DNA from: a virus
IMG/VR virus record: IMGVR_UViG_3300003322_000651
Location: 5,500 to 27,679 of that record
DNA: 22,180 nt
Direction: 5' to 3' (one strand)
Program-made: the position numbers and the translations under genes
Shown: piece by piece, positions 15,513-22,093 of the stretch
Numbering within the stretch: the stretch's first letter is position 1
How the letters are laid out: the number at the start of each line of letters is the position of its first letter
Notes under the pieces: model-generated
What the model saw: the letters and a program-made list of their open reading frames with translations, nothing else
Databases searched by the model: none
Told to the model about the DNA's origin: nothing

Positions 15513-17603
15513 TCAGGACTGGTCGGGGCGCACGGCGTAGCGGCCGTACTTGGGCTTGTGCACACGCGAGTCCTCGCCGAGCCAGCGGCCGATCGTCGCG
15601 GCGTGCGGGGTCTCGTAGCCGTGCGGCTTGAAGAACCGCTCGAAGATCTCCTGGACGGCCGCCGGGCCGATCCCGTCCTCGCCTGCCTTCGCGACGATCC
15701 CGAACACCATCTCCCTGCGGGGATCGGCGTCATCACCCTGCTGGACCGTCGGCGGCGGCTCGACGGCGGGAGGCTTCCAGGTGACTCCGCCCCCAGCGAG
15801 GATGTCGAGGAACTGGGCGTCCAGGTCGTCGTCCCGGGAGCTGGTCTCCTTCATCGCGTCGTGCAGACGGCGGCGGGCAGCCTCTGCCTGGTCGATGACG
15901 TCCTGCGCGTCGCCGCCGGCCGGAGTGGTTCCCCAGCCGTCGGTGACACCGGTGCCGCGCGTTTGCGGTGCGGGCGCCTCCCGCTCCTCCGTGATGGTGG
16001 GGGTGGGTCCGATGCCGAAGAGGTGGTCGGTGTTCATCCACCGCTGCTCATACGCCTCGCCCGCGGCCTTGCGGGACAGCTCGTCGAGCTCGGGATGCCG
16101 GTCGGCGGTCGCCTTCACGATGTCGAGGATCTGGTCCGGCTTCAGCCGGTAGATCTTCACCGGGTGGACCTGGCCCTCGCCGTCCTGGATGAGCGCGCAC
16201 CCCGGGTAGGGGGCGTCCTCGGCGGACGCGCCGTGGTTGTAGCCGAACAGGTAGTTCAGCTCGGCGTCGTGGGCGACCTTCATCCCGGCCTTGTAGGTGG
16301 ACTGCTTCAGCACCTGCGGGTCGGACAGCACGTCCTGGGTGGCGCGCAGCCCGGACGTGGTCTCGTTCACCGCGGCGGCGCGGGCGATCTCCAGGGTCTG
16401 GATGAGGTCGTCGCCGATCGCTCGGAGGATCTCCTGGCGGCGGGAGCGGGTGGAGAAGATCTCCGCGCCCTCGTCGTTGAACACCCGGATCTCCGGCACC
16501 TCGTGGTCGACGGGCAGCTTGTCGTCGTTCGCGGCGATCTCCCGGTCCTGGTAGCCGACCTTGCGGGCCTTCGCGATCCGCACCAGCGCCGCGGCCATCG
16601 CGCGCGCCTTCTCCGGGGTGTCCGCCACCCAGTCGATCGGCGGCCTGCCGGGACGGCCCGCAGTGTGCCAGGCGCGCATCCACTTCAGGGCGAGGCCGCC
16701 GCCGTTGAGGTCGATCGCCCACGAGATCGAGTCGGTCATGCGGCAGTTGTTGGCGACCTGCACGTGCATCAGGTTCGACTTGCCGGATCCGCGCTGCCCG
16801 ACGATCAGCATGGACGCCTGCCGGTGGACCGGCCCCTCCGGCGTGCCGTCGCGGCGCACCCCGACCGGGGCCGGAGCGTTCACGGTGAGCGGCGAGTAGT
16901 CGGCCGGGTAGTCGACGTCGTCGACGAGCCGGTTGACGGTGGTGACGTGGATGAGGACCGCGCCGCGGTGCGCACCGGGTTCGACCTCCACCCCGCAGCC
17001 CTCGGCGAGTTTCGCGTCCGCAGCGAGCTGCTCCTTGTAGGTGGCGATGTCCTTCCACCGGGTGCCACCCGCTCCGCACTCGCCGTCGAGGCTGAACCCG
17101 CCGCCGGACGGCCACTGTTCGACACCGACGATCTGCACGACGGTGCCGTGGCAGACGCGGACGATGCGGTCCTCCCACTCGTCTGCGATCTGCTTGCGCT
17201 TACCGTCGAGGGTGGCGCGGCGGGCCGCGGCCTCCTGCTCGGCGCGCTCTTCTGCGGCGGCGGTCTCGACGTGGTGGGCGCCGGCCATGGCGGCGCCGAG
17301 GCCGAGGGCGCCGATGAGGAGACTGCCGATCCCCCACTGGGACCACGGCCCGTTGACGATGGCCCACGAGCACCAGCCGCCCGCCGCAAGCCAGCCTGCG
17401 GCGCGCAGGGTGAGGGTGGCGGTGGTGACGTTGGCGCGGCGGCCGGCGAGGTGCGTGCCGACGGCTCCGGCTCCGGCGGCGAGTGCGGCCCACTCCCACG
17501 GCATGGTGGTGGCGTGTCCGGCGTAGCCGACGGCGAGGGCGGCGAGGCCGGTGTTGATGGGGCCGGTGACGGGGCCGTGCTTGGCGTCCCAGTCGAGGTT
17601 CAC
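15513..17603 (-). CDS. FtsK/TraB-type membrane DNA translocase
   Basis: The product is 696 residues from GTG 17603 (VNLDWDAKHG), with GGAG seven bases upstream. Frame continuity beyond this is a shadow of the preceding gene. Residues about 18-110 hold three to four membrane segments. A charged helical linker (112-145) follows. The motor has Walker A GQRGSGKS at 269-276 and a Walker B-like RVFNDEGAE at 373-381. Residues 629-690 (EMVFGIVAKAGEDGIGPAAV to KPKYGRYAV) look like a winged helix. This order matches Streptomyces conjugation proteins (TraB/TraSA), hexameric pumps that move double-stranded DNA and read short repeats through the winged helix. FtsK itself is longer. Membrane-protein neighbours support a transfer module; a cell-division or packaging-related FtsK role remains possible. 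Confidence 0.85.
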   Translation of the reverse strand: MNLDWDAKHGPVTGPINTGLAALAVGYAGHATTMPWEWAALAAGAGAVGTHLAGRRANVTTATLTLRAAGWLAAGGWCSWAIVNGPWSQWGIGSLLIGALGLGAAMAGAHHVETAAAEERAEQEAAARRATLDGKRKQIADEWEDRIVRVCHGTVVQIVGVEQWPSGGGFSLDGECGAGGTRWKDIATYKEQLAADAKLAEGCGVEVEPGAHRGAVLIHVTTVNRLVDDVDYPADYSPLTVNAPAPVGVRRDGTPEGPVHRQASMLIVGQRGSGKSNLMHVQVANNCRMTDSISWAIDLNGGGLALKWMRAWHTAGRPGRPPIDWVADTPEKARAMAAALVRIAKARKVGYQDREIAANDDKLPVDHEVPEIRVFNDEGAEIFSTRSRRQEILRAIGDDLIQTLEIARAAAVNETTSGLRATQDVLSDPQVLKQSTYKAGMKVAHDAELNYLFGYNHGASAEDAPYPGCALIQDGEGQVHPVKIYRLKPDQILDIVKATADRHPELDELSRKAAGEAYEQRWMNTDHLFGIGPTPTITEEREAPAPQTRGTGVTDGWGTTPAGGDAQDVIDQAEAARRRLHDAMKETSSRDDDLDAQFLDILAGGGVTWKPPAVEPPPTVQQGDDADPRREMVFGIVAKAGEDGIGPAAVQEIFERFFKPHGYETPHAATIGRWLGEDSRVHKPKYGRYAVRPDQS

Positions 17604-17623: not shown

Positions 17624-18988
17624 TTAGAGGTTGGCGGAGACGTCCCACATGCGCTCGCCGGCGACGCCCTTGCGGGGGTTCTCCAGGCGGGCGATGTCGA
17701 CGTCGTGCAGGGATCGGAACGCGGGCTGCAGTTCGGTGGCGAGTTCGGCGGCCTTGAGTTGCAGGGCGTGGATCTGCCGCATGATCTCGACGATGTTCGG
17801 GTGCAGCGGCTGGTGGGCGTCCGCGTTCTCCACCGTGACCTTCATGGCCTCGGCGTGCAGGCGCAGCGCCTCCTCCAGTCCGGCGAAGTCCTGGCCGACT
17901 TGCAGCATGCCTTGCGGCTGATAGTTCGCGGCGGCGCGGGCGGCTTCCATTGCGGGGGCGACGAAGTGGTGTCCTCCACCGGACATGGCGGGTCCTCCAG
18001 TTGTGGTTGCGGGGATGGGTGAGGTGGGCCGGCGGACGGTGTCCGCTACTGGCGGTTCGGTTGGGGGGCCGGTCTGCTTGCGGCGGTCCCGGCGGCGGCG
18101 CCATACGGCGAGGAGCCGGTCGAGTCCGGCGCGGCCGCCGCGGCGCAGCGCCGTCCACGCTCCGGCGAGAAGCGCGGACAGTCCGTCGCGTGCGGCGCCG
18201 GCGGCATGCCGGAGTCCACGGCCGATGGCCCTTACGCCGCGGCCTGCCCACTGGCGGGCCTGTGTGGCTGCCGCGCGGGTGGCTCGTGCTGCGGCGGCGC
18301 GCACGGTCTGCGCGGCGCGGCGGACGGGTCCGGGAGTCTGCTCGCGGTCCTTCTGCCTGCGGTCGCGGTCGCGCGGGGAGCGGTTGCGTTCGGGCTTCCG
18401 GCGGCGCAGGCCGCTACCCCCGGACCCGTTGCTGCGATGGCGGTGCGCTCCACCACTCCCGCCGCTACCCGGGCGCCCGCTACCGCCACGGCCGGGCGCC
18501 ATGCCGCCGCTACGCAGCAAGCTGCCACGCGTAGCGCCACCGCCACGACCGCCCGACCCGCTACGCCTGAGCCCGCTACCGCCGCCCGCACCGGGCGCTA
18601 CGCGGCCGCTACTGCCACGCAGTTGGGCCGACGACGTGCCGCTACCCGCTCGGGCCGCGACGCTACGCTCCACCGCCGCCCGCCGCCGTAGCGCCGCAGC
18701 GGTGACACCGGCCGCGATGACGACACCCGTAGCGGCGGCCGCATACGGGCCGCCGACACGGTAGGCGGTGGTGATGGTGAGCGCGGACGTGTTCCCGGTG
18801 GCGGCGAGGACGGGGGCCATGGGCAGGCCGCGGGCCGGCCTCTGCTTCGCGGCGGGCGGCTCGGGGATGGGCCACTCGGAAGGCCAGGCCAGCACCGGGG
18901 ACGGGCGTGCCACGTCCTGTGCGGGCTGATCCGGGGGCGGTGCGGGGGGTGCCGGTGTCTCGGGGGTCGGCGTCTTGGTGCGGGCCAC
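17624..18988 (-). CDS. Membrane protein with Gly/Arg-rich region, upstream of the translocase
   Basis: The frame is open for 454 residues from GTG 18988 (VARTKTPTPETPAPPAPP), which has GAAGGAGAGG upstream. A Pro-rich start leads to a hydrophobic pair of segments at about 75-120 (TAYRVGGPYAAAATGVVIAA). Next come a Gly/Ser/Arg region (about 125-225), basic Ala-rich amphipathic helices and a final soluble domain of 120 residues beginning MSGGGHHFVAPAMEAARAAA. That domain has its own ATG (17986) with GGAGGA seven bases upstream, so it may also, or only, be made separately. It ends in ARLENPRKGVAGERMWDVSA, 20 bases before the translocase start. Function unknown; a partner of the translocase is likely by position. 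The Gly/Arg region carries the GTAGCG repeat cluster. Confidence 0.65.
   Translation of the reverse strand: MARTKTPTPETPAPPAPPPDQPAQDVARPSPVLAWPSEWPIPEPPAAKQRPARGLPMAPVLAATGNTSALTITTAYRVGGPYAAAATGVVIAAGVTAAALRRRAAVERSVAARAGSGTSSAQLRGSSGRVAPGAGGGSGLRRSGSGGRGGGATRGSLLRSGGMAPGRGGSGRPGSGGSGGAHRHRSNGSGGSGLRRRKPERNRSPRDRDRRQKDREQTPGPVRRAAQTVRAAAARATRAAATQARQWAGRGVRAIGRGLRHAAGAARDGLSALLAGAWTALRRGGRAGLDRLLAVWRRRRDRRKQTGPPTEPPVADTVRRPTSPIPATTTGGPAMSGGGHHFVAPAMEAARAAANYQPQGMLQVGQDFAGLEEALRLHAEAMKVTVENADAHQPLHPNIVEIMRQIHALQLKAAELATELQPAFRSLHDVDIARLENPRKGVAGERMWDVSANL
18412..18734. repeat. Dense cluster of GTAGCG/CGCTAC hexamers (clt-like candidate)
   Basis: Thirteen copies lie in 323 bases, starting at 18412, 18463, 18478, 18508, 18531, 18559, 18574, 18596, 18607, 18640, 18661, 18688 and 18729. 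Ten read GTAGCG on the minus strand; those at 18531, 18688 and 18729 are inverted. Most extend to GTAGCGG or GTAGCGC. An isolated copy lies at 18044. The copies encode different residues (Gly-Ser, Arg-Ser, Val-Ala, Ala-Thr, Ala-Leu) in more than one frame, so protein sequence alone does not explain them. Confidence 0.8.
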
Positions 18989-19004
18989 GGGCGGCCTCTC
19001 CTTC

Positions 19005-19102
19005 ACTGTGACTGGAACTGTGACTGCAGTCCTGCCGGGCGGGTGCGGGGGTTTGCGCTGTTCAGGGGGTGGATCGCGGTGTGACTGCAGTTGGACTGCA
19101 GT
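19005..19102. promoter_or_regulatory. Operator-like repeats upstream of the Gly/Arg-rich membrane gene
   Basis: The 8-bp palindrome ACTGCAGT occurs at 19023-19030, 19084-19091 and 19095-19102, the last two 11 bases apart (one helical turn). ACTGTGACT is repeated at 19005-19013 and 19017-19025, the second running into the first palindrome. These fill the 125-base gap before the start at 18988, one repeat lying just upstream of the SD. Repressor control of the transfer genes at this point is likely; no obvious -10 box was recognised. Confidence 0.6.
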
Positions 19103-19113
19103 CGCGGTGGGAG

Positions 19114-20091
19114 TCAGGCGGCGCGCGGGCCGGGCAGGCGTGGGTTCTCGGCTTCGACTTGGCGGCGGATCTTCCCGGCCTGCGCGCGGGAGTTGGGTAG
19201 GCCAGCGGCGCCGAGGGCTTCGACGACCGCGCCTTCGGTGGGGCGGTGGCCGAGGTGCAGCCACAGGGCGCGGACGACGTAGTGGGGGGTGCCGGGTTCG
19301 TAGCAGGGCACGCCCGGGTCGGTGGTGGCGTCGAGCGTGGCGGTGGCGTCCTCGGCGGCCGTTGTAGCGGCGTGCGCGGTCGCGGTGGTGCGTGGCGGCT
19401 TGGGTGTAGCGGGTGGTGGCGCTACAGCCTGTCGGGGTGTGGCGGCGGGAAGCTCGGTGGCGCTACTGAGCATGGCGGCGAGCGCCGTGTTGGCGCCGTC
19501 GACGATGCGGGTGTTCTGTACGTCGGTCAGTGCGCTACCGAGGGTGGCGTCGTGGTGGCCGAGCTTGGCCATGAGCCGCCACGCCACGAGCTCCGATACT
19601 CGGCGCACCCACTTCCAGGGGTGGCGTTCGGCGCGCGCCCGGTGGTAGGCGATCTTGCGGAGGATGGCGGCGTTGCGGCGTTGCGCTTCGACGTCGATGC
19701 CGGTGCGGTGCACGACGATCCGGCGGGCGAGGAAGCTGGTGCCCTCCGCGGAGGCGGTCATGGCGAGCGGGGTCAGGGCGAAGACGACGGCCTCGGTGCC
19801 GGTCGGTGCGATCGCCAGGCCCATCACGGAGGCGGTGGCGGGCAGCAGCCACAGTGCGGCGCGGATGGCGAGGGGGGCGGCCTGGCCGAGCATGGTGACG
19901 CCGATCATGACGATGGCTGCGACGAGGGTGGCGCCTTCGCCGGCGGCGACGACGCCGAGGGCTGTCTCCTTGCGGTGCAGGACGCTGGCGGCGTTGGCGT
20001 AGGTGCCGATGGCGCCGCCGATTCCGACGGTGATCATCGGGATGGTGGCGATGGCGAGGACGGCGATCTGCCCGCCGGTGAGCTTCTTCAC
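19114..20091 (-). CDS. Multi-pass membrane protein with C-terminal helical domain, Spd-like
   Basis: The product is 325 residues from GTG 20091 (VKKLTGGQIAVLAIATIPMI) with GGAG upstream. Residues 7-145 contain about four membrane segments (PMITVGIGGAIGTYANAA, GATLVAAIVMIGVTMLGQ, APLAIRAALWLLPATASVMG, EAVVFALTPLAMTA). A basic cytoplasmic helix follows (HRTGIDVEAQRRNAAILRKI) and AERHPWKWVRR. A Pro/Thr/Ala linker leads to a C-terminal domain (about 265-325) with RPTEGAVVEALGAAGLPNSR and KIRRQVEAENPR, resembling a helix-turn-helix. I recall similar membrane proteins in Streptomyces integrative elements annotated as transfer or DUF2637-like proteins. It probably works with the translocase. Five GTAGCG motifs lie in its linker-coding part. 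Confidence 0.7.
   Translation of the reverse strand: MKKLTGGQIAVLAIATIPMITVGIGGAIGTYANAASVLHRKETALGVVAAGEGATLVAAIVMIGVTMLGQAAPLAIRAALWLLPATASVMGLAIAPTGTEAVVFALTPLAMTASAEGTSFLARRIVVHRTGIDVEAQRRNAAILRKIAYHRARAERHPWKWVRRVSELVAWRLMAKLGHHDATLGSALTDVQNTRIVDGANTALAAMLSSATELPAATPRQAVAPPPATPKPPRTTATAHAATTAAEDATATLDATTDPGVPCYEPGTPHYVVRALWLHLGHRPTEGAVVEALGAAGLPNSRAQAGKIRRQVEAENPRLPGPRAA
19364..19538. repeat. Second group of GTAGCG/CGCTAC hexamers
   Basis: Copies start at 19364 and 19406 (GTAGCG on plus) and at 19420, 19461 and 19533 (GTAGCG on minus): five in 175 bases. In the coded protein they use unusual codons for this DNA (ACA Thr, GTA Val, AGT Ser, GGT Gly). They appear to belong to the same motif family as the denser cluster downstream. 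Confidence 0.65.
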
Positions 20092-21106: not shown

Positions 21107-22093
21107 TTATCGGTTGGCGTGCACCTTCTGGGTGTGGTGTTGGCCGACGTGGCCCAGTGGGCGATCGCAGGCGTTGCCACCACCGCTCACGTGTCCGCAG
21201 GACCCGACGCGCGCCAGTTCCGTGGCCCGCTTCTTGGCCGCAAGGCGACGGTTGGACTCTCGCTTGCACTCGCGACACGACAGGTGTCCGCGCGCGTTGG
21301 TGATGGAGTTCGCGTCGTCATAGGCGTGGCCTGCTGGACAGTGGCTAGGCCGTTGACGGGGCGTGCTACCGCCATGCTTCCTGGCCCACCGCTCCCGGTC
21401 GCACTCTCGGCAGGCCATGCCTTGACGACCAGCGTTGGCGCCGTCGTACGCATGGCCGTTCGGACAGTGCGTTCTGTTGCGCACGGCCTGCTTACTGATG
21501 TCTAGGTGCGTCGGGTAGGCGGCGAGCTCGGGTTCCTTTGCCTCGATGCGGCGGCGCGCGGCCAGAGCCGTCGCGGGAGTGCTGCCGATTCCGGCCGTGC
21601 TCATCGCGCGCAGCACATTGGAGATCGTCGGGCGCAGCGCGAGTTGGCCGTAGAGCGGCCTTACGACAGCGTCGATTTCTTCTTTGGTGGCTCGACGCCT
21701 CCCTGCTTCGGCCACCTCTCCCCGCCTGACGTTCTCGGCGAACGTAACGGCTTCCAGGTGGGCCGGGTTCGAGCATGCGCGGTTGCGGCAAAGGTGATCG
21801 AGGACAAGGCCGTCAGGAATGGGGCCGCGCGCAACGAGGTAGGCGAAACGGTGGGACCGCAGCTTGGCGTGGCGGAAGTTGAACCTTCCGTAGCCGCAGC
21901 CCGAAAGGGTGCTGGTCCAGACCCAGCAGTCCCCTTCCATGACGATCTTCGCCTCGAATCGGGCGATGTCGCCGTCCGTGACTTGGATCTCCTGGCCGTC
22001 GTTCAGGCGGATCTTCGGTAGTGGGGCCAGGCAAAGCGGCGCGATGAGGGTGCAGTTTGTTGGCGATCCGCCGATAACATTCGGCAAGGTCAT
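21107..22093 (-). CDS. HNH endonuclease with C-terminal zinc ribbons
   Basis: The product is 328 residues from ATG 22093, which overlaps the end of an upstream frame (ATGA); AGGA lies four bases upstream. After a 50-residue N-terminus comes the HNH_3 type nuclease: GDCWVWTSTLSGCGYGRF (54-71), HRFAYLVARGPIPDGLVLDH (81-100) and LCRNRACSNPAHLEAVT (101-117), with catalytic His 100 and the Cys pair. A helical linker (133-190) leads to two near-identical modules, CPNGHAYDGANA...CRECDRE and CPAGHAYDDANS...CRECKRE, likely zinc-binding and DNA-reading. A last Cys/His tail follows. This is the plan of free-standing homing nucleases of actinophages. Target site unknown. Confidence 0.85.
   Translation of the reverse strand: MTLPNVIGGSPTNCTLIAPLCLAPLPKIRLNDGQEIQVTDGDIARFEAKIVMEGDCWVWTSTLSGCGYGRFNFRHAKLRSHRFAYLVARGPIPDGLVLDHLCRNRACSNPAHLEAVTFAENVRRGEVAEAGRRRATKEEIDAVVRPLYGQLALRPTISNVLRAMSTAGIGSTPATALAARRRIEAKEPELAAYPTHLDISKQAVRNRTHCPNGHAYDGANAGRQGMACRECDRERWARKHGGSTPRQRPSHCPAGHAYDDANSITNARGHLSCRECKRESNRRLAAKKRATELARVGSCGHVSGGGNACDRPLGHVGQHHTQKVHANR

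Follow-up and report, generated by a model that had tools for sequence, protein, structure and literature searches.

Why is a word of six bases crowded into the coding DNA of two neighboring phage genes, and which protein reads it? The question is raised by the IMG/VR virus record IMGVR_UViG_3300003322_000651, a Streptomyces-type phage sequence of 27,679 bp, of which bases 5500-27679 were analyzed (22,180 bp; referred to as the window). Copies of GTAGCG or its complement CGCTAC accumulate in two genes upstream of a TraB/FtsK-type translocase gene, and a preliminary description of this DNA had proposed a recognition locus bound by the translocase, in the manner of the clt loci of Streptomyces plasmids. 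Sequence comparisons indicate that the locus is indeed a recognition array, albeit with a revised identity of the reader: it is fairly probable that the cluster is a self-embedded array for a membrane-anchored helix-turn-helix (HTH) protein, one that probably tethers the DNA of its own element for transfer or spread driven by TraB. The module comprises the following features (window coordinates):

15513..17603, minus strand: gene of the TraB/FtsK-type translocase, 696 amino acids (phrog_31069, E value 7e-85)
15516..15716, minus strand: C-terminal winged-helix region of TraB (REMVFGIVAK...PHAATIGRWLGEDSRVHKPKYGRYAVRP), read by eye
17624..18988, minus strand: gene of a Gly/Ser-rich protein, 454 amino acids, containing 14 of the 19 clustered GTAGCG copies
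18044..18049, minus strand: single outlying GTAGCG, also in the Gly/Ser-rich gene
18412..18734: core array of 13 GTAGCG/CGCTAC copies inside the Gly/Ser-rich coding sequence
19114..20091, minus strand: gene of the membrane-HTH protein, 325 amino acids (phrog_16651, function unknown)
19147..19287, minus strand: C-terminal HTH of the membrane-HTH protein (amino acids 269-315), the proposed array reader
19364..19538: second sub-array of five copies (19364+, 19406+, 19420-, 19461-, 19533-) in the membrane-HTH gene

A recount reproduced exactly the 19 copies at 18044-19538, 13 of them at 18412-18734, that had drawn attention to the locus; the rest of the window, for which about a dozen had been estimated, holds 13 scattered copies. 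The total of 32 compares with 9.19 +/- 2.96 expected from dinucleotide shuffles (maximum, 16), a null model that was superseded by synonymous-codon shuffles (10,000 per gene). With the gene assignment refined, the copy at 18044 and the 13 core copies belong to the gene at 17624-18988 (14 versus a shuffle mean of 1.51 and a maximum of 6, so that none of the 10,000 shuffles reaches 14), and the five at 19364-19538 to the gene at 19114-20091 (5 versus 0.76; reached in 1 of 10,000). The traB gene itself shows no enrichment under the same shuffles (1 versus 0.78). The array thus spans two adjacent genes, at 0.4-1.9 kb from the traB start on the upstream side, and its copies occupy both strands and several codon phases, as had been noted. 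Since the enrichment exceeds what codon and amino acid constraints allow, the earlier suggestion that selection acts on the DNA rather than on the protein is borne out.

Because the record comprises only 27.7 kb, the genome-wide control was taken from whole contigs of relatives. No other cluster of such density occurs in two related phage contigs (66,578 and 68,487 bp), and all five other complete relatives retain the cluster: L003, L004, L007, L008, and L016, whose TraB proteins are 64-81% identical to that of the window, carry 9-15 copies in the Gly/Ser-rich gene, to which the membrane-HTH gene adds another 4-5. The individual sites turn over, only 2-5 of the window's 14 columns in the aligned Gly/Ser-rich genes being common to each relative, and the copy number nevertheless stays near-constant. 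The preliminary description had named three outcomes that would speak against a DNA-level signal, i.e., similar counts under a codon shuffle, an even density across the genome, and related elements without the cluster; none of them was found.

The product of gene 19114-20091 has the predicted build of a membrane-anchored DNA-binding protein. In an AlphaFold model built from 12 relatives, only parts of which are reliable because its mean predicted local distance difference test (pLDDT) value is 64, four long helices at residues 6-130 are read as transmembrane and are followed by a helical stalk up to residue 209, a disordered linker (residues 211-261; pLDDT, ~30), and a three-helix domain (residues 269-315; pLDDT, ~86). 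Four of the five GTAGCG copies in this gene fall within the linker-coding DNA or at its edge. A Foldseek search of the model against the PDB returned no significant match, the weak ones being two Fur-family winged helices (probability, 0.4-0.5, over 51-58 residues). No Pfam or NCBIfam model matches the window protein, and the Pfam cutoff of PF10935 (DUF2637) is not reached. Of 393 Streptomyces species genomes searched with a hidden Markov model of the N-terminal domain, 84 contain the protein. Together with phages and plasmids, 123 different membrane-HTH proteins were collected, whose loci span phages, phage-plasmids, plasmids, and integrated elements. A TraB/FtsK relative was found in 101 of the 123 loci and in about seven more by a second, wider search, with the HTH gene located upstream in most; detection relied on phmmer, a Walker-A pattern having been dropped because it overlooked most relatives and picked up apparent primase genes. 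Woodruffvirus phages (L020, L021, L022, and L023; Geonosis is predicted to be virulent) carry the membrane-HTH protein and an FtsK/TraB-like gene close to the end of the genome, a pairing that suggests use in the lytic cycle, e.g., for the passage of DNA through hyphal cross-walls.

A blind scan for clustered 6- to 8-mers in distant relatives revealed different words at the same place. The corresponding gene contains 15-23 copies of TGAGCC per 500 bp in L010-L015, the plasmid pSLE1 (L025), and L026; other elements use GTGACG (L027, L030, and L031), GTGCCG (L028), or GTGTCG (L033). When the proteins are grouped by HTH class, the words of the larger classes are enriched in the class's own membrane-HTH gene as follows (observed/expected under codon shuffle), with off-diagonal cells of the class-by-word matrix mostly near 1:

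HTH class 4 (window): GTAGCG, 26/4
HTH class 3: TGAGCC, 197/31
HTH class 2: TGATGC, 63/10, and GATGCG, 84/15 (word TGATGCG)
HTH class 1: GTGACG, 270/135, and GTGCCG, 123/69
HTH class 0: CCGATC, 249/112

Because the synonymous null is too conservative for words that are read in frame (Val-Thr, class 1), a Markov cluster score was added. It is scarcely credible that the arrays are a mere artifact of low-complexity coding repeats (Gly-Ser, Glu-Pro, or Val-Thr linkers): the linkers are of low complexity and some classes do read the word in frame (VT, EP), but the enrichment survives a null with fixed amino acids, both strands and several phases are used, and it is the word, not the amino acids, that follows the HTH class. 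Within classes, small changes in the putative recognition helix appear to accompany one-base changes of the word, pairings that were read by eye from a table, without phylogeny. In class 1, GGExR[V/I]R goes with GTGACG, GSExRLR mainly with GTGCCG, and L033 (ASAARLR) mainly with GTGTCG; in class 0, SPANAR goes with CCGATC, SSxxGR with CCGACT, and SPEKGRW with CGACCG.

The words are located mainly in the linker-coding DNA (12-35 copies per kb in classes 1-4); that of class 3 extends into the HTH-coding part, and that of class 0 is weaker and also occurs in the N-terminal part. In the 500 bp upstream of the gene, the word reaches only 0.4-2 copies per kb and is not enriched. This distribution bears on autoregulation, i.e., repression of the operon by its own HTH protein via intragenic sites. 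HTH proteins often autoregulate, and the sites do sit in the protein's own gene, but 0.4 copies per kb upstream (classes 1 and 3) versus 25-35 per kb in the linker, and 15-25 copies in both orientations over coding DNA, do not resemble an operator, which makes this explanation very unlikely. Arm-type sites of a tyrosine integrase are also at odds with the layout. GTAGCG repeats flank an apparent attP in several integrated elements, and in L157, L116, and L153, 10-13 of them form compact, near-symmetric sets 7-8 kb downstream of the HTH gene; the window copies, however, are spread over two coding genes, with no core site, and those integrated elements belong to HTH classes 0 and 7, whose own gene lacks GTAGCG enrichment (class 0: 10/13). 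The same hexamer occurs there at a different place, possibly by coincidence, and an integrase function of the window array is hardly conceivable. As an observation in its own right, such sets of 9-13 copies are located at L157:9277-9480, L116:9764-9963, and L153:8458-8688 as well as in L071, L083, L086, L096, and L144, and other elements carry TGACGCAG or TTTCTGTG in the place of these arm-like sets.

Which protein reads the array? TraB proteins of Streptomyces plasmids bind repeated 7- to 8-bp motifs via a C-terminal winged helix (PMC3583192, PMC4170104), and the assertion that a translocase of this build adjoins the array holds: for gene 15513-17603, the phrog_31069 match and the winged helix read by eye agree with the TraB/FtsK type, the Pfam FtsK_SpoIIIE score of a close relative is below cutoff, and the closest relatives occur in Streptomyces phages and actinobacterial plasmids. 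According to the preliminary description, the array would be the phage's clt, read by the winged helix (15516-15716); on this view, the membrane-HTH protein would be an accessory. TraB is adjacent, and no other repeated word was found at the 3' end of the window traB. The comparison of blind motif profiles in 99 elements nevertheless points to the membrane protein. The element with the nearest HTH matches the first word in 63% of cases, the element with the nearest TraB C terminus in 34%, and a random element in 2%; for elements with unrelated TraB, the HTH predicts the first word in 52% versus 13%. Under both scoring schemes of a matrix regression, the first word is associated with the HTH (P = 0.002), and the coefficient of the TraB C terminus is negative once the HTH is accounted for.

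Many elements carry, besides this first array, a second word cluster at the 3' end of traB, which behaves in the opposite way: its word is matched by the nearest TraB C terminus in 60%, by the nearest HTH in 22%, and by a random element in 5% of cases, and the regression associates it with TraB (P = 0.002) rather than with the HTH (P = 0.38 and 0.10). There is thus a double dissociation, in which the first word follows the HTH of the membrane protein and the traB-3' word follows the TraB C terminus. The traB-3' clusters are candidate clt/TRS words of integrated conjugative elements. Those recorded include AGGGAG, GACAAG, CGAAAC, and TGACAC/CTGACA, with CTAGCG/TAGCGA elsewhere, at the loci L156, L159, L162, L120, L127, L129, L139, L142, L091, L111, L124, L128, L131, L133, L075, and L165. 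TGACAC (L075 and L165) resembles the word of the pWTY27 clt, a footprinted locus that comprises four TGACACC and whose start lies in the final 16 bp of traA (PMC3583192). In the control scan, pIJ101 (L034) yielded no strong 6- to 8-mer cluster.

For the window's own family, the tie-breaker is the plasmid locus L017. The winged helix of its TraB, PHAATIGRWLDADPRVHKPSYGRYAVRP, differs little from that of L004, PHAATIGRWLAADPRVHKPKFGRYAVRP, with nearly the same recognition helix (PHAATIGRWLxADPRVHKP), yet the corresponding 3 kb contain no GTAGCG and 49 copies of GGGGCG; its membrane protein (PF10935) has an HTH different from that of the window family. We therefore regard TraB as probably the wrong reader and a clt function of the window array as unlikely. 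The array shares with clt/TRS loci a cluster of short repeats near traB; it differs from them in that the repeat does not follow the TraB winged helix and does not lie at or beyond the tra 3' end.

Several observations weigh against the membrane-HTH protein as the reader. TraB and this protein are co-inherited in the window family, so that the choice rests on L017 and the general trend. Most window copies sit in the Gly/Ser-rich rather than in the HTH gene, and because no separate repeated word was found at the traB 3' end in the window family, GTAGCG could still serve TraB there. With HTH and array in one gene, linkage (hitchhiking) alone would produce some of the correlation; the pair statistics are inflated by conserved homology at the DNA level, and at an N-terminal identity below 65%, the advantage of the HTH is smaller (32% versus 10-14%). 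The enrichment is only weak in HTH class 5 (Woodruffvirus phages; 22/8) and was not seen for Galactica gp96, a protein outside the membrane-HTH family.

The explanation that we favor is based on DNA-level selection, conservation with turnover, a mainly linker-coding position, switching of the word together with the HTH rather than with TraB, and linkage to TraB, from which we infer binding of the word by the HTH, tethering, and a role in transfer or spread. The C-terminal HTH of the 19114-20091 product would read a short word of about 6 bp, many copies of which stand in the DNA that codes for the protein's own linker and, in the window family, also in the Gly/Ser-rich gene next to it. Numerous monomers, anchored in the membrane and holding a single array, would tether the DNA of the element there, next to the TraB/FtsK pore, whose gene follows directly downstream. 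Tethering would mark "self" DNA, with the word as the element's address, for intercellular transfer or for spread through mycelial cross-walls.

The main functional rival leaves reader and array unchanged and regards them as a membrane-anchored partition centromere, which positions or segregates an extrachromosomal form, conjugation being secondary. Such a role could coexist with transfer; as the primary function we consider it possible, with more arguing against it than for it. Low-copy phage-plasmids carry the system (pSLE1, L025), StbA of R388 is a motor-less analogue acting on short repeats, and SpdA2 of pIJ101, a DNA-binding protein of the Spd type, affects stability rather than transfer (PMC4170104). 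The gene is, however, mostly located directly upstream of traB; integrated elements have it as well, as do phages for which a virulent lifestyle is predicted (Geonosis), and L030 and L167 possess nearby ParA genes in addition. Between array and traB, no ParA/ParM-type motor was recognized, the surrounding small genes not having been searched exhaustively.

Beyond tethering for transfer, the two word types may be parts of a two-lock addressing system common to actinobacterial phages, phage-plasmids, conjugative plasmids, and integrated conjugative elements, in which an HTH word (10-35 times in its own gene) and a TraB 3'-end word are combined, with cassette evolution and a readable HTH-to-base code; we judge the chances of this broader proposal to be evenly balanced. 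A swap of HTH plus linker would alter the reader and its sites together, and specificity would thus evolve as a cassette. A 2022 study points out that even pSAM2, the archetype of integrated elements, is without a described clt motif, and asks whether elements can use one another's pores (PMC9513070). The present survey provides candidates for both words, defined by sequence, in about 100 elements and an uncharacterized membrane protein as a candidate reader of one of them. Since HTH variants and words covary at the single-base level, the elements also represent a natural data set for HTH specificity. The proposal suggests why phages of a mycelial host possess a conjugation-type pump, namely, for moving DNA through hyphal cross-walls. 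No description of such arrays was found in a search of the freely accessible literature, to which most papers on TraB do not belong; this literature contained a single passing reference to DUF2637, the related domain found in L017.

With respect to the remaining genes, the Gly/Ser-rich protein (17624-18988) has one membrane segment predicted by eye and a conserved helical C terminus; its translation might instead begin internally, near 17987. The coding sequence of traB contains five to six copies of GATCTCC/GAGATC at 16100-16600; relatives have them too, and they may simply reflect conserved coding. An HNH endonuclease gene (PF13392) at 21107-22093 lies at the module edge and is possibly mobile. 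The left part of the window contains phage genes:

4070-5614: portal (SPP1-type portal; phrog_104), a phage structural gene
5682-7211: large terminase (phrog_2)

Replication iterons were set aside for the window, given irregular spacing, the use of both strands, and no Rep gene recognized adjacent to the array; iteron and origin alternatives have little support. Repeats of other kinds were seen elsewhere: nine GGGTAAC within 500 bp of the Streptomyces phage Galactica (L018:16200-16700), away from its TraB-like gene, are possible origin or regulatory repeats, and the AATCTGACC repeats at L012:2600-3100 and L031:2000-2500 are iteron-like.

Among known systems, the clt/TRS loci of pSVH1, pIJ101, pJV1, and pWTY27, which are read by TraB or TraA, resemble the window locus as cis-acting arrays of short words beside a TraB gene in similar elements. 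The position of the pWTY27 clt matches the second, traB-3' type of cluster, whereas the window array is located upstream, inside the membrane-HTH gene and its neighbor, with a word that follows the HTH of that protein. The window protein also recalls the Spd proteins, being a predicted integral membrane protein (by its modeled helices) encoded upstream of TraB in most loci, just as the tra operon encodes the membrane protein SpdB2. For SpdB2 of pSVH1, DNA binding, oligomerization, and an interaction with TraB are reported, but the binding is said to be nonspecific, and that account describes neither a cognate array nor a specificity domain (PMC4170104). Proteins with DUF2637 share the layout, i.e., PF10935 membrane domains, a linker, and a C-terminal HTH upstream of TraB in L017, L168, and L171 (L169 is just below cutoff), with strong arrays in L017 (GGGGCG) and L169 (GGGTACGG); in contrast to them, the window protein has no PF10935 match and its family no Pfam model. 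With about 37 occurrences of a word resembling GGGTACGG, the borderline DUF2637 gene of a Kitasatospora plasmid (L169:2725-4701) has the strongest array seen. StbA with stbDR of R388 and ParB-like centromeres likewise combine a DNA-binding adaptor with repeated short sites, which there are reported to affect both stability and conjugation. StbA is soluble and its sites lie upstream of its operon, whereas the window protein is predicted to be membrane anchored and its sites lie in coding DNA. Sites inside the gene of their own binder are known from phage lambda, whose replication initiator O has its four iterons (ori-lambda) within its gene; the proposed binder of the window differs from O in being a membrane protein encoded beside a translocase. 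Compared with the known cis-acting arrays of conjugative elements, what would be new is a membrane-HTH protein as the reader and the placement of its sites in its own coding DNA.

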